The notes beneath the pieces are model-generated. The model worked only from the letters and a program-made list of their open reading frames with translations, ran no database searches and had not been told where the DNA came from. A DNA stretch of 64,000 nucleotides from a virus: positions 1 to 64,000 of the IMG/VR virus record IMGVR_UViG_3300044953_000102, one strand, 5' to 3'. The stretch's first letter is position 1; every line of letters starts with the position of its first letter. Below are positions 4,244-61,916 of this stretch, one piece after another. The position numbers were made by a program, and so were the translations under genes.

Positions 4244-7200
4244 ATGGTTTGTGAAGTACAATTAAACTCTATAAAATACTTACAAAATAAAGGTGCTACT
4301 AATGATGTAAGAAGAATTATTGATGAAGATCTCTTTAATGAGCTTAATGATAAACTTACAGCACTTGCTGAAACTAAGTATGGTCTCAAAACTAATGGGG
4401 CTAAATTGTTTAGTATAAATATGTCTGAGCATATTGATCCTTGGAGATCAACATATTATAGAGATACTAAGTATAAAATACTAAGAGCAGAACCAAACGT
4501 ACCACTCTTTGATAGACTCCAAGAGTTATTCAACGCTAGACCTGATCAACCAATGATGATGAGAGAACTACCAGTTGAAACTCAAGAAGAAATAATTGAC
4601 TCTCAAGAAAATCCATTTATAGAAATTAACGGAGTACTCTTCATGGATGTCAAACTAGATGAACTCCAAAATCAAAGATCACGAGAAATTGCTGAAGTAC
4701 TTGCTAAAAGACTATCACTCGGTACAAACACCAAGTTTGAAAATATCACTAAGGAAGAGGCCGCTGAGATATTAAAAAACAGACCTGTCAAGTACAATGG
4801 AGAACCAGCCTTTTACTATGCAGGAACAGTTTATGTAGTAGGGGAAAATGTCAACGTGAGAACTGTATTGCATGAGTTTTCACATCCTGTACTAAACGCT
4901 CTGAGAAAGACTAACAACATCCTGTTTCAGAATCTATACAATCAAGCTATTGCTACTGAAGAAGGTCAGGGAATCTTTTATTATGTAAAGACTAACTATC
5001 CAGAATTAGAGGAGAGTTCAGATTTATTTAAAGAAGAAGTACTTGCATATGCAATGCAGTTAAAAGCACTCAACAGAATCAACAATGAAATTGAGACTGA
5101 AGGGTATAAGAGTTTCATGAATAAACTCTTCGCTGCCATCAAGCAATTACTTAGAAGATTGTTTGGTAATAAAGTAAATGTTGCCAAGTTAGATGTGGAT
5201 ACTACGTTAGAGGAACTTGCTGACATGCTCTTAGATAAAGACTTTGAGTTCTCTACAGATTTGATAACTGAAGATGACCTTGCAATGTTTTCCAGGGAAG
5301 TACTGGAACGAGCAAAAGAACTAAATAAATTCTCCAACAAAGAATCAATGGAGAAAGTTGTAAGGACTACATATGAATACACCAAAAGAATTCTGACAGA
5401 GGCCGAAAACTTTAAAGGTGATAAAGTATCTAGAAACTTACTTAAAGAATCACTGTTTCAAAAAGGTACTAATAGATACTTGCGGGAAGTTGTAAGTAAT
5501 TTAAAAAACAACCTGGATACTAATATAGAAGGTAAGTCAGAAGATGAACTTATACAAAATGCATTAGATGCTGCTAGAGTTGAGATGGATGTAGATCTCC
5601 AAAGAGCAATGGCATTAGTAAACAGTTTAGATAATATTAATGGCATGACTAAAAACATGTTGTTAGACATATCTAGAATCAACAACTCTAATATAAATAA
5701 CAGAAGTACTATTGCATTGATGATGCTTTACAAGTCTAACTCTAGAGCTTGGTTAAAAATGATCCAAGAGATAGATGAAGCTTTATCATTAAGTGGAGAT
5801 ATAATAGATAGTAATAATCCATTCTATAAAACAATGAATGAGATTATACTAAACATCACCCGGATCAATACAAACATTGCCAACTTACTTAAAAATAACA
5901 ATGTTCAGTTCTATGTTGAGATGACAAGTTATATGTCAAAATATGTTCAGGATAGATTGAAAGGTAATTTAGGCATTGCATTAAAACAAACATTTCCAAC
6001 AGAACAATTAGAACGTGAAGTGGATGACCTGTATAATAAAGTAGTTCAACAGACTCTTACTGATGCAGACATAGATGCATTAGTGCAGAAAGGTGTTCCT
6101 GCTGATGTATTACGTGGGTTTATAACTGAGTATAAAAACTTAGTAATTGATGAAGAAAAAATCAAAGCTGCACTTACTGGAGGAGCTCATGATGTAAGCT
6201 GGTTTAATAGATGGTTAGAGTCATATAGTTCTAGTAATGACATCATAGTAGGTCCATTAGCAATGTTTATTCAGAATGAAAAGACTCAAGTTCAACAACA
6301 AGTTTGGGAGAAGTCAATGAAGTTTAGAAATAAACTTGAAAAACTTTTACCCAAAGTTGGCTTTAGCAAATTGAATTCTATTGCAATGAGAGAGAAGATG
6401 GGATTCAAAGACAAAGTGTTCTGGGTAGATAAAGAAACCGGGAAACCTATTGAGAAAGAAGTTTGGAGTTATGTGGGTGCATTTAAAGATTATAGATATC
6501 ACTATGATCTATTAGAGTGGAACATAGAAGAACCAAAGAAAACTGAAGATCCTGCTAAGATTGCTCAGGCTATTATGGACTTTGATGATTTTAAAAGAGA
6601 CTACATGTGGCAAGAAAATGTTCCTGAATTCTATGCAAAGGATGACATATTTAAAAAATCTGAGGTAGGTCAATTAGCATACTATGTAAAGAAACAGAAA
6701 CTTCAAGCTTATAATAACTTAGTTAACTCAATGGAAAGTGAGCTTGAAAGAGTGGAAAAATACTCTACTATTCAAGCTGCATTTAGAGAATTCCAACAGT
6801 TATATTCTCTTACATATGAAGATGGTACTCCAAAGGTAGATGACCCTGCAAATAATGTCTATGATTTAAGTATAGCAAAAGTACTTATAGAACATAGAGA
6901 AGCTACTAAAGACTTTTATGAATGGAGACCTATTGAAGGTTTGTTACAGAGTGCATATAATGAGTATGTAGATTTGCTTGCTACTAAACAAATCTTTCCA
7001 GGATCTGCTGAGTTTAATAGAGAAATAGAAAAATGGAGAAGACAGAACCTACGTATGGAATATACAGAGGACTTCTGGGAATCTAGAGTTAAACTATGGA
7101 ATGAACTTGGTGAACTACAAGCAAAAATGAATGCTGCAACTAAATCAACTTTTGATTCTGCTGCCGCATTTAAAGAAATTAGTGATCTAATTTATAGTTA

Positions 7201-37209: not shown

Positions 37210-37225
37210 AGAATTTAGTTTATAG

Positions 37226-37299
37226 TGGTCCCATTTGGATTCGAACCAAAGACCTACTGCTTAGAAGGCAGTTGCTCTATCCAGCTGAGCTACGGGACC
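37226..37299 (-). tRNA. tRNA-Arg (anticodon TCT)
   Basis: Full cloverleaf on the minus strand: acceptor GGTCCCG with TGGGACC, D-loop AGCTCAGCTGGATAGAGC, anticodon stem ACTGC/GCAGT around CTTCTAA, T-arm containing GGTTCGAATCC. Discriminator base A; CCA is not encoded. It reads AGA (and AGG), the arginine codon that dominates in this phage, so it likely supports late protein synthesis. Confidence 0.97.
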
Positions 37300-38047: not shown

Positions 38048-38374
38048 TTAAAAAGGTAAATTTAAATCAGTTATTAAATCCTCAGCACCAATTGCTCTAT
38101 CTAGCAATGTTGCTTTTTTGCTTGCAAGTTTCTCCATCTTGGCATTTACTTTATAAACCTCAAGTTTTTGAAACCAATTGTGACCAAGAGAATCATTATG
38201 AGAGAGAATTCCTTCTATTCTACATAACATTCTATCTTTTCTGCTTGAACGCATTACAGCAAAACCAAATATTTCTCTAATTTCATCTGCATCTGCAGCT
38301 GTAAGATTCATATTTAGTTTAATAATTGTGTGACCACCAAAACTGTGGTAGCCAAAAGGAATTGTTTTGTTCAT
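38048..38374 (-). CDS. Conserved hypothetical protein of 108 residues
   Basis: Begins MNKTIPFGYHSFGGHTIIKL, then DADEIREIFGFAVMRSSRKD. Basic, helical. No motif I can assign. First coding gene downstream of the small membrane gene at 38392 and the structured RNA region. Confidence 0.75.
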   Translation of the reverse strand: MNKTIPFGYHSFGGHTIIKLNMNLTAADADEIREIFGFAVMRSSRKDRMLCRIEGILSHNDSLGHNWFQKLEVYKVNAKMEKLASKKATLLDRAIGAEDLITDLNLPF

Positions 38375-38391
38375 AAGTTTAATTTTTAAGT

Positions 38392-38571
38392 TTATTTTTC
38401 AGATTCAATTCTTAATGCAGTTGTCACAGTAGCAATTAGTATAATTACTTGGACTATCCATCCAAATATATTATACTGTTCAAAGTGGAATACCCCACCA
38501 AGTGTTGTCATTCCTTCAAGAAAAATGACTAGTAATATAGCCAAGGCTATATATTGGATTTTTTTAATCAT
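38392..38571 (-). CDS. Small two-span membrane protein of 59 residues
   Basis: Hydrophobic residues ~6-20 (QYIALAILLVIFLEG) and ~37-52 (WIVQVIILIATVTTAL). Short charged ends. Reading frame closed by TAA. It lies at the edge of the long non-coding region and could be transcribed with it. Confidence 0.65.
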   Translation of the reverse strand: MIKKIQYIALAILLVIFLEGMTTLGGVFHFEQYNIFGWIVQVIILIATVTTALRIESEK

Positions 38572-38599
38572 AAGTTTAGTTTTAAATAGTTAATAATCA

Positions 38600-40110
38600 T
38601 ATACATTGAGTGGTACTAACTGTACTACTCATTAGTATTTAGTACTTGCTTGAAGCACTAAAAAGAAAGACCGAAACCGTTATAGTTCTAGTCTTTAAAA
38701 TTGTAAAGGGCTGAGTGTTGACCTTTTACTTGCAATAATTCTGACAGTTTTCACCATCTTACACACACTATTATTTCTAACAGTATATTGCATGCACAAT
38801 AGATTAGGTATCTATCAAACCACTACGTACCAACTAATAAGTTCCTGTTCCTACCAACTTCCCTGCAAAGGATTAACAAGATGCCTCCTGTTAGTTAGAT
38901 AGTACTTATTTCCTTTACCATCTGTCTTGCGGACATCAGGTATCTACATATTACAGCAGAATAAGTGCATTTTCATTAGTACGTGTCTGGACACTTTTGC
39001 ATTATAATTAGTAATAATTATTTTGCGGTCCAAGAATGTGAAAGTAGTGGTCCAAACCCTTAATAACATGCTACCTTTTGGGTAGTTTAGTTATACTACT
39101 TTCTGTTTTCACCTGCCAAGGATACTCACTGTCAAATGTAATTGTCCACGGTATTTCTACCAACAGACTACAAATGACTAATAGACGCTTCAAGACTGGC
39201 AATCTCTACTACATACTATTTACTATACCTATCTATTGAGATTTCTCTCTCAAACTCCTACTTGTTAGAAGTTCTGTAATACTGTGCATCAACCGTTAGG
39301 CCACAAGCACCCCACATTACAGGGAATATAGTATCTTTCAGTAGACAGGATAAATCCTGCGCAATATGTTACCAACATATCACTTTATACCATCACTGGT
39401 TTATCTTAAGGTCACGAAGACTGACCTGTTGTTTCAGTAACCCATCAAGTAGGTTTAACGTACACACCATGAGCATTTCAACTCTGAGGGTAACAACATT
39501 GTGTACTTATATTCAGGACTCTTACCTGCAAATCCCTACATAGTCAATAGGAATGGCTTTTTTACATATAGACCATTTGCAAAAAATAAAAGTAAACAAT
39601 AATGTTGGAGAGATACAAAACGATAGATTAATTACTTCTACCTTCCTTGTTGAAAATCTACTCTCTTTTCGATTGTTACATAGTTTTAGTTACCTACTGT
39701 ACTTGCGGCAACACTATTGCTTACTTCTTAAAATCACTTAAAGGAGCTACCTTTCGTTTAAAACGCTAATGAGTGATTTTATTTGTAACTTACAAAACCT
39801 ACAACAATAGGTACATCAGTTACAATGTTTTTCAACTTTAGGAAAACCAATACACTATTGTTCAAATAGTTTAATTGATTTTTAATGAACAAACCTGATT
39901 TAAATAGTTTACTCTATTTACCCCTCTGCACTCAGTTTGTAATAGTAGCTTTGACGTGCTAATAGATGTCACTCTACTCAAATGTCAGGATTAGTTTTTT
40001 TCACCTGATTCTGGCTTGTTTGTTTACCAGCATTTGAACTATTACAAACTGCTCACCCTTACGGGTTAGTGCAAAGAGAAAATAAAGAGCAGTTTAATAT
40101 CATGCTCAGG
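38600..40110 (-). ncRNA. Candidate large structured non-coding RNA
   Basis: About 1.5 kb without plausible genes in a genome that otherwise leaves almost no gaps. It is richer in G+C than its surroundings and full of nested complementary segments. Clear examples: CAGTTTGTAATAG (39933-39945) with CTATTACAAACTG (40039-40051), 13 bp, enclosed by TGCACT/AGTGCA (39928/40067); inside it CAAATG/CATTTG with two further hairpins; a three-way junction at ~39730-39780 (AAAATCACT/AGTGATTTT holding two hairpins); GAAAGTAGT (39040-39048) with ACTACTTTC (39095-39103), containing ATAAC/GTTAT and CTACC/GGTAG; GTACACA (39460) with TGTGTAC (39500). On the minus strand ACCC-GTAA-GGGT has a GNRA tetraloop, favouring leftward transcription like the neighbours. 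It resembles large ornate phage RNAs such as GOLLD or ROOL in size, complexity and closeness to a tRNA; homology is not shown. Confidence 0.55.
39928..40073 (-). other. Multi-branched RNA domain at the 5' end of the structured region
   Basis: Outer TGCACT/AGTGCA helix; within it the 13-bp helix 39933-39945/40039-40051, then CAAATG/CATTTG (39980/40031) holding TCAGG/CCTGA and CTGG/CCAG hairpins, and beside it the ACCC-GTAA-GGGT hairpin on the minus strand. These helices are compatible with one another, which random sequence rarely achieves at this density. Confidence 0.6.
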
Positions 40111-40119
40111 ATAATGTTT

Positions 40120-40359
40120 TTAGTATATAGAATCTAAATCAGGAAGACCTGATTTAATTTCTTCTCTATACTGTTGTACAAGCCAGAGTTTATCTTCAAA
40201 CTCCATACTAGTAATTTCCCGGATTTTCTGTTCATCTAACTTTTCCCGGTAGTACTGTTTAGCAAAAACTAATAGTTCTTGATTAACTAATAGGTTCTGA
40301 TAAGCAAGAGTATCTGTATACTCTCTGTTGATAACTTGATTAATCATAGTTGCATTCAT
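40120..40359 (-). CDS. Small hypothetical protein of 79 residues
   Basis: Highly helical: MNATMINQVINREYTDTLAY, then YYREKLDEQKIREI and WLVQQYREEIKSGLPDLD. Soluble, likely a short helical bundle. Directly upstream of the structured RNA region with 10 bases between, so it may share its transcript. Confidence 0.7.
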   Translation of the reverse strand: MNATMINQVINREYTDTLAYQNLLVNQELLVFAKQYYREKLDEQKIREITSMEFEDKLWLVQQYREEIKSGLPDLDSIY

Positions 40360-40418
40360 ATATATATGTTTAAAAGATTACGTAATTAAAAGTTAGCTAT
40401 ATTTTTTTATTATATAAA

Positions 40419-40433
40419 TACTATAATAATATA
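40419..40433 (-). promoter_or_regulatory. Leftward copy of the TATATTATTAT promoter-like element
   Basis: On the minus strand TATATTATTATAGTA lies 60-75 bases upstream of the 79-residue gene, sharing TATATTATTAT with the two rightward copies. It could drive the small gene and the structured RNA. Confidence 0.4.
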
Positions 40434-40755
40434 TAGTAATAATGTATAGGATGTATGAGTAGTAAATGAGTAGTGAGTATAATACTCACATACTTAAACT
40501 CTCTTATCTAATACAGATTTCCGCGTAGAATTTTATTTAACTCTACAATTATTCTGTATCTTAATTAACCCATACAAAGTATTATAATAATATTATTTAT
40601 TTTTTGTTGAGTAGTATTGAGTATTGAGTAATATCTACTGATGTTAAACTCAATTACTATTTACTAAAAAAATCAGAAATAATGCGGTAACATTATTTCC
40701 CATTTCAAGTGAAGGGTTAGCAAAAAAGAGGGTATTCTAATTACTAAAAAAATGA

Positions 40756-40779
40756 AAAGTAGGACCTAAGTCCTACTTT
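40756..40779 (-). terminator. Intrinsic terminator after the 146-residue gene
   Basis: Perfect 10-bp stem AAAGTAGGAC/GTCCTACTTT with a 4-base loop, then TTTTCATTTTTTT on the minus strand. Confidence 0.9.
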
Positions 40780-40794
40780 CTCATCTCACAATGT

Positions 40795-41235
40795 CTACAA
40801 ATCTTCATTCAATGCAGCATCATCCCCATTTGCAACAGGTTCTTGTATGAATGCATTTGCAGTACTGCTGGATACTTTACCTGCACCAAATACTTTATCT
40901 GCAAGTCTATTTGCAAATGCAGTTGCAAGCACTGATGAAGTTTGCTCCAACATTTCCAATCTTGCAACATCTTTTCTTGTTTCAGATTGGTCTAATGTGA
41001 AGTTACCATCTTGTTTAAGATACAATGGTAGTTCATCTCTAAATGCATCCATATACATTGTATGCATTTGTGGTTCTCCACTTGCAGACTTCCGTGGATA
41101 TTGTTTGAACTGCGGGGAATTAATATATTGTTTAATTTCCTCGGTTGTACCTTTGATGGTATAAATATGGAAGGTTTTACCTTTTTGCTCACCTTCTTTA
41201 CGGATATAGTTCCCACTGTAAACTGCTTTCAACAT
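40795..41235 (-). CDS. Conserved hypothetical protein of 146 residues
   Basis: N-terminal beta-like part (MLKAVYSGNYIRKEGEQKGK, FHIYTIKG) followed by YPRKSASGEPQMHTMYMDAF and a helical acidic tail. Small phage proteins with this layout sometimes bind DNA; no family identified. It has its own terminator and lies second from the divergent control region, so it is probably an early gene. Confidence 0.75.
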   Translation of the reverse strand: MLKAVYSGNYIRKEGEQKGKTFHIYTIKGTTEEIKQYINSPQFKQYPRKSASGEPQMHTMYMDAFRDELPLYLKQDGNFTLDQSETRKDVARLEMLEQTSSVLATAFANRLADKVFGAGKVSSSTANAFIQEPVANGDDAALNEDL

Positions 41236-61250: not shown

Positions 61251-61916
61251 ATGAAAATGTGTGCTAAATGTGGTGGATCTATGAAAAAAGGTGGTGCTAC
61301 AAAAAAGATGGCTAAAGGTGGTGTGCAAAAAATTGTTGGTATGCCTGGATATAATGCAACTCTTTACCCTACATCTTTTAAGAAAGGTGGTGTTAAGAAA
61401 ATGCAGAGTGGTGGAGAAAAACCTGATAAAAGTGTTTTAAAAAATATACTAGGTTTAATTGGTGGAGGATCTGGTATTTTAGCTGGCACAATATTAGGAA
61501 ATAGAGAAAAGGATTCTGAAAAAGCTAATGAAAGAGATAATAAAAGAATCCAAAGAAAAAGTGATAGAAGGGAAAAGAAAGGTTACAAACCAATCTCTAG
61601 ACCATCATTCAAAAATGGTGGTTCTACTTCTTTTGGTATGCTTTCAGTAAAAGCTGGTGTAGATAAAAATCCTAAACCAACTGCTGCTGATAGAATTGCT
61701 GGAGCTAAGATGAAAAAGAAAATGGGTGGTTCAGCAAAACCTTCTGCTGATCTTAGTGCAAAAACTAAATCTAACATTGCTAAAAAAGCTAGTGCTGGAA
61801 AAGACATTGGTAAGAAAGGTAAAGGTTTTGCAAAAGTAGCTGCTGCTGCAGGTGGTGGTGAAAAAGGTAAAAGAATTGCTGCAGCTGCAATGTGGAAAAA
61901 TATTAAAAGAGGATAA
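61251..61916 (+). CDS. Large basic Gly/Lys-rich protein of 221 residues
   Basis: MKMCAKCGGSMKKGGATKKM opens with a CxxC pair and two GG motifs; MQSGG and KMGGS occur later. A hydrophobic piece near residue 65 (NILGLIGGGSGILAGTILG) could be a membrane or glycine-zipper segment. The rest is disordered and basic. Together with its neighbours probably an internal head protein. Confidence 0.75.
   Translation: MKMCAKCGGSMKKGGATKKMAKGGVQKIVGMPGYNATLYPTSFKKGGVKKMQSGGEKPDKSVLKNILGLIGGGSGILAGTILGNREKDSEKANERDNKRIQRKSDRREKKGYKPISRPSFKNGGSTSFGMLSVKAGVDKNPKPTAADRIAGAKMKKKMGGSAKPSADLSAKTKSNIAKKASAGKDIGKKGKGFAKVAAAAGGGEKGKRIAAAAMWKNIKRG

Follow-up and report, generated by a model that had tools for sequence, protein, structure and literature searches.

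A divergent GOLLD-lineage RNA in a gene-free phage locus, with predicted self-cleaving ribozymes beside its 3' end in relatives

What does a phage encode in a 1.5-kb stretch that holds no gene? The question is posed by the window analyzed here, the first 64,000 nucleotides of a viral record of 114,943 bases (IMG/VR record IMGVR_UViG_3300044953_000102), in which a first-pass annotation based on the letters alone had pointed to a gap full of RNA stems and had suggested a giant RNA such as GOLLD or ROOL. The RNA is GOLLD, a known class, in the form of a divergent lineage encoded on the minus strand. The reading that best explains the locus, to which we assign a probability of roughly 0.85, is that this GOLLD-lineage RNA is a putative cage former whose 3' end probably arises by termination in the window and by ribozyme self-cleavage in most relatives.

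The gene-free gap and its phage context

40119-38572: gap without genes, flanked by minus-strand open reading frames (ORFs), one ending at 40120 and one starting at 38572
37225..37299, minus strand: tRNA-Arg (TCT), 1.4 kb downstream and on the same strand; context only

The gap from 38572 to 40119 does lack a believable protein, as first described, since the only ORF of at least 60 aa touching it is a plus-strand frame of 62 aa that is absent from relatives. Its lower AT content also holds, with a GC content of 34.4% for the whole gap and 37.1% for the GOLLD part, compared with about 30% in each flank, and the neighboring tRNA is a minus-strand tRNA-Arg 1.27 kb away. A blastn search of the gap against annotated phages returned no match. 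The terminase and portal proteins of the record match PHROG families 6681 and 6547, respectively, and the named phages closest to them are crAss-like (23-28% identity); one of these, cr1_1, is classed in Crassvirales. In addition, the terminase is 26% identical to those of Flavobacterium psychrophilum phages, and the portal is 34% identical to that of a Leptolyngbya phage. On the basis of these protein matches, we call the window phage a deep crAss-like relative. Its GOLLD RNA is probably cotranscribed with the minus-strand genes on either side.

A divergent GOLLD lineage on the minus strand

38708..39582, minus strand: GOLLD-lineage RNA, about 875 nt, 5' end at 39582, delimited by homology to related loci
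38708..39103, minus strand: GOLLD 3' domain, matching the whole Rfam model RF02032 (positions 1-416 of 416)
39113..39508, minus strand: inner 5' domain, conserved and lying beyond the Rfam model, aligned in 15 relatives
39509..39582, minus strand: outermost 5' module, type A (TTGCAAATGG...), delimited by an alignment of relatives

Model match, homology and covariation together show that the gap encodes a divergent GOLLD-lineage RNA at 39582-38708. Searched by E-value, RF02032 matches the window over its full length with 121.6 bits (E 6.9e-33) and no competing family, a score short of the curated GOLLD cut-off of 150 bits, which is a database threshold and not a structural feature. An Rfam scan of the window at curated thresholds reports the tRNA alone, and the GOLLD RNA is therefore missed by default or automated Rfam annotation; because scores fall below the cut-off, we label it a divergent GOLLD lineage. 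ROOL, OLE and HEARO, which had been proposed for checking alongside GOLLD, gave no match in the window at the gathering threshold and none in 38300-40900 at E values up to 5. No GOLLD was found in Vibrio phage ICP1, Staphylococcus phage K, Leptolyngbya phage Lbo-JY46, csAssE-Sib or cr1_1.

Among related viral contigs, which were fetched by neighboring genes and conserved words, RF02032 matches occur in 22 besides the window (73-134 bits, best 133.7), all under the cut-off. Three contigs (L157, L173 and L183) escaped the RF02032 search, yet align to the window GOLLD at 72-74% identity over its full or nearly full length. Homology with the GOLLD loci of relatives spans 39592-39582 to about 38695, limits that give an RNA of about 875 nt. 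The inner 5' domain and the 3' domain can be aligned throughout the relatives, and both are kept in about 20, while the blast match of L223 is confined to the 3' domain. Other relatives carry an outer 5' module, type B, that is unrelated to type A, which suggests that the outer 5' ends of these RNAs undergo module exchange. GOLLD is optional at this gene junction as far as the fragmentary contigs indicate: in L002 and L010, the neighboring nuclease gene is 90-94% identical and two or three twister-like elements occupy the junction, with no GOLLD in the sequence searched, although other parts of these genomes could contain one.

Both domains show strong covariation across 15 sequences, with a score reached by none of 500 shuffles in either. 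The inner 5' domain contains 112 pairs, of which 51 are changed on both sides; 97.5% of its cells are paired, compared with 85.2% after shuffling and 31-44% with one strand slid, the slid versions being at a disadvantage because the structures were derived from the alignments on which they were tested. The 3' domain (38709-39112) contains 98 pairs, 97.6% paired, and again 51 are changed on both sides. Double changes in more than 100 pairs are not explained by the circularity between structure and alignment. The fold of 39585-38705 is more stable than dinucleotide shuffles (z -4.1, from only 20 shuffles), and the long arm recognized earlier at 39040-39103 is real, being the first stem of the GOLLD model. 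The first-pass annotation had named absent covariation, shuffle-like folding and a conserved reading frame as grounds for abandoning its proposal; the relatives covary, the folds exceed shuffled controls both here and upstream, and no conserved reading frame emerges across the roughly 875 nt.

A putative twister variant at the gene junction

In four relatives (L002, L005, L008 and L014), the gene junction at which the window carries a decayed copy holds a compact element with the layout UAAUGCACC-AUU-[P4]UUCCCAAGG[P4']-CAGUUG...CAACUG-AG-UGCA-GAGGG. A canonical twister, recognized by Rfam in a related contig with 57 bits, has the sequence UAAUGCA-GC-[P3]-AGAG-UCCAAAGC-CUCU-AUAAA-UGCA-GAUGGG, and the shared order and letters suggest that the element is a twister in which T2 has changed from GC:GC to CC:GG. 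About 120 intact copies were found outside the window, with 0-2 intact cores per contig. The searched pattern did not include P1, which pairs in register in 75, 75, 73 and 56% of 120 copies, compared with 30-49% in neighboring registers, its innermost position being uninformative (77% in one slid register via G-U). P4 and P5 covary, P4 with a bias because its pairing had been required in the search. T1, whose three letters were left free on both sides, is fully complementary in 119 of 123 copies and shows compensatory changes (CAC/GUG in five copies, CCA/UGG in two). L2 reads CC in 120 of the 123, with GG in L4, instead of the conserved GC of T2, and a T2 pairing in the CC:GG form is possible.

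The intact element shares with twister (RF03160; PMC5408937, PMC6154101) the UAA at the presumed cleavage site, P1, P2 (UGCA/UGCA), P4 with its loop and the T1 pseudoknot, and in a sister phage its site is held by a canonical twister. It differs in its CC:GG T2, in a long P5 where the canonical form has P3, and in going unscored by Rfam: the twister models gave no score at E values up to 10 for copies in L010 and L125, and twister-P1 detected none of the variant copies in 20 contigs, finding only a separate canonical copy in the contig of L196. Judged by this pattern, the intact element has the architecture of a twister ribozyme, and self-cleavage is predicted. No report of the variant was found in the open papers searched, which is weak evidence of absence.

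Ribozymes at the GOLLD 3' end

The loci with sequence past the GOLLD end were grouped at 97% identity, measured across this end and the next 60 nt, into 21 clusters. In 13 of these, a ribozyme of a self-cleaving class begins no more than 12 nt beyond the GOLLD 3' end. Eleven clusters carry the variant twister 7-12 nt past the conserved CUCAGCC. One (L289/L293) carries a canonical twister 7 nt past it (56.8 bits, E 4e-10, below that model's own curated cut-off of 67.2), and one (L167/L180) a pistol about 6 nt past it (56.5 bits, over the cut-off); both were recognized by curated Rfam models. The GOLLD ends and flanks of L269 and L289/L293 are nearly the same, and the variant of the former and the canonical twister of the latter sit between identical flanks, CTTGTAC and GTACAGTATTAATTAAAATC. 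Pistol (RF02679), which reaches its curated threshold directly 3' of GOLLD in L167/L180, also reaches it further on in L166/L178 (at about 280 nt), in L174 and in L295, where it follows a variant twister, but is absent from the genome of the window. In L015, the variant lies at 89 nt. No close ribozyme was found in 8 of the 21 clusters, including the window, L176 (131 nt seen), L288, L291, L292 and L294. The open papers searched contained no report of GOLLD with an adjacent self-cleaving ribozyme, again weak evidence of absence.

Reviews (PMC5408937, PMC6154101) and background knowledge place the twister cut at the 5' edge of the ribozyme and the pistol cut near its 3' end. A twister copy just 3' of GOLLD would therefore free GOLLD, leaving it a short tail with a defined end, and a pistol in this position would remain attached to GOLLD after cutting. 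In most relatives, the GOLLD 3' end would be set by a ribozyme starting 6-12 nt past the conserved end; the position and class of these elements are observed, and their predicted cleavage probably generates the 3' end. In the window, a different element follows GOLLD directly.

38665..38696, minus strand: terminator-like hairpin followed by CUUUUU (12 pairs, -9.8 kcal/mol, z -2.1), directly 3' of GOLLD

This hairpin was not listed by a simple consensus terminator scan. Hairpin and U-tract, a modest signal, probably set the 3' end of the window GOLLD, with termination replacing cleavage.

We lean towards a general scheme in which the GOLLD RNAs of this phage group are cut from longer transcripts by exchangeable ribozymes (T2-variant twister, canonical twister or pistol), giving them an exact 3' end that cage assembly may require, so that GOLLD and ribozyme would form a modular cassette in which some members, including the window, have swapped the ribozyme for a terminator. 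Alternatively, these phages may simply have many ribozymes between their genes, acting on mRNAs, with the proximity to GOLLD being incidental. This explanation is rather unlikely; in its favor, the element also occurs at junctions without GOLLD, 8 of the 21 clusters lack a close ribozyme, and the clusters, being related by descent, are not independent trials. However, each contig has no more than two intact variant cores, and chance does not account for 11 clusters in which one begins 12 nt or less past the GOLLD end; two further ribozyme classes occupy the same place. If the cassette scheme is correct, three ribozyme classes at one position, the end of a giant, putatively cage-forming RNA, would reveal a concrete ribozyme job, the making of 3' ends, and GOLLD would gain a processing pathway. 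The lineage, lying below the Rfam cut-off, is overlooked by surveys that apply it, and the twister variant is missed by current models.

Variant copies were additionally observed just 5' of GOLLD in L157, L168, L173, L177 and L183, where GOLLD is flanked on both sides; a twister 5' of GOLLD would remain joined to it after cleavage, since the cut would fall on the upstream side of the ribozyme.

Comparison with solved GOLLD and other large RNAs

The env-38 GOLLD, 833 nt long with a split near 420, was solved by cryo-EM as a 14-mer cage (Kretsch et al. 2025, PMC12286853), and that paper describes the 5' region of GOLLD as less conserved. The window RNA resembles GOLLD in matching the whole 3'-domain model, in its two domains, in its length of more than 800 nt, in being phage-encoded, in an AT-rich linker within the 3' part and in a tRNA 1.3-1.4 kb away. 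It differs in scoring below the curated cut-off, in a 5' domain of only putative homology to the solved one, in the two exchangeable outer 5' modules of its lineage and in the 3'-end ribozymes of its relatives. By homology with the solved GOLLD, the window RNA may form a cage, and its copies would then assemble into a hollow RNA shell. ROOL, OLE and HEARO are likewise large ornate non-coding RNAs, and ROOL is also phage-encoded, found near tRNAs and cage-forming, but no covariance model of the three matches the window.

The RNA could instead belong to a separate class that is merely GOLLD-like, sharing the 3' domain and differing in 5' domain and function. Every score lies below the curated cut-off, RF02032 models the 3' domain only and leaves the 5' domain outside, and the 5' region of GOLLD is itself described as less conserved. 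A separate class is nevertheless improbable, because the match covers the whole model (positions 1-416, E 7e-33) with no competing family, and the total length and two-domain layout are those of the solved RNA. Membership of the GOLLD lineage therefore remains the preferred assignment.

Structured sequence upstream of GOLLD

39915..40078, minus strand: decayed twister-variant copy, by comparison with the intact copies at the same junction in L002, L005, L008 and L014
39589..39785, minus strand: structured stretch between this remnant and GOLLD

The window copy of the variant keeps P2, a 13-bp P5 and GAGGGG, whereas CUU replaces the cleavage-site UAA and the 5' strand of P4 is gone, which leaves the twister set of UAA, P4 and L4 incomplete. 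Lacking the UAA site and this strand, it should not cleave and should be inactive. The 13-bp helix reported at 39933-39945 with 40039-40051 is exact, and only 7 of 1,000 simple shuffles give a comparable helix within 150 nt. The ACCC-GUAA-GGGT hairpin seen earlier on the minus strand pointed to the right strand but belongs to this separate element (40078-39915). Twister-P1 gave only a 17-bit hit at 61348-61414 in the window's genome, which is at chance level, as 10 of 14 control genomes gave hits at this threshold too.

Folding of 40119-39590 far exceeds dinucleotide shuffles (z -7.1, 100 shuffles). Between remnant and GOLLD, the fold contains a three-way junction at about 39785-39725 (9-bp closing stem) and an 18-bp-closed stem at about 39721-39589. 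The junction proposed near 39730-39780 is thus present, but outside the conserved RNA, and homology comparison and exact-pattern scans found no relatives of 39589-39785. Intact hammerheads were not found by pattern; the three-way junction has a vague likeness to one by eye, with core letters changed or lacking, and is not claimed as such.

The first-pass annotation had placed all helices in one 1.5-kb RNA. On such a reading, GOLLD would be the 3' part and the twister remnant and upstream stems an extra 5' domain. The strong folding of these 530 nt, the common strand and the lack of a recognized promoter or terminator between the parts fit this view. However, the homology of relatives ends at 39592-39582, some contigs have the twister-like element but no GOLLD at this junction, and no relative of 39589-39785 was found, which makes a single giant RNA quite improbable; only about 875 nt are GOLLD, and the 39933-40051 helices belong elsewhere. 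A decayed coding region or other junk DNA, for which nothing speaks beyond the missing annotation, is extremely improbable given compensatory changes in more than 100 pairs, about 875 nt conserved without a reading frame and the model match.

Other observations in related contigs

In L002, L010, L191 and others, two or three variant copies lie close together at a single gene junction; their cores are conserved and their P5 inserts hypervariable, which looks like duplication of the whole element. The two outer 5' module types, unrelated to each other, occur on otherwise homologous GOLLD RNAs (for example window 39509-39582, L168 and L176). A Hatchet ribozyme (RF02678, 86.7 bits, above its cut-off) lies at L108:158-295 on the plus strand of a contig that also has the twister variant, which brings the ribozyme classes in this phage group to at least four. 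In addition, the GOLLD-bearing viral contig L292 carries a tmRNA gene (RF00023, 85.6 bits) at 5449-5859 on the plus strand, beside a tRNA at 5368-5442.
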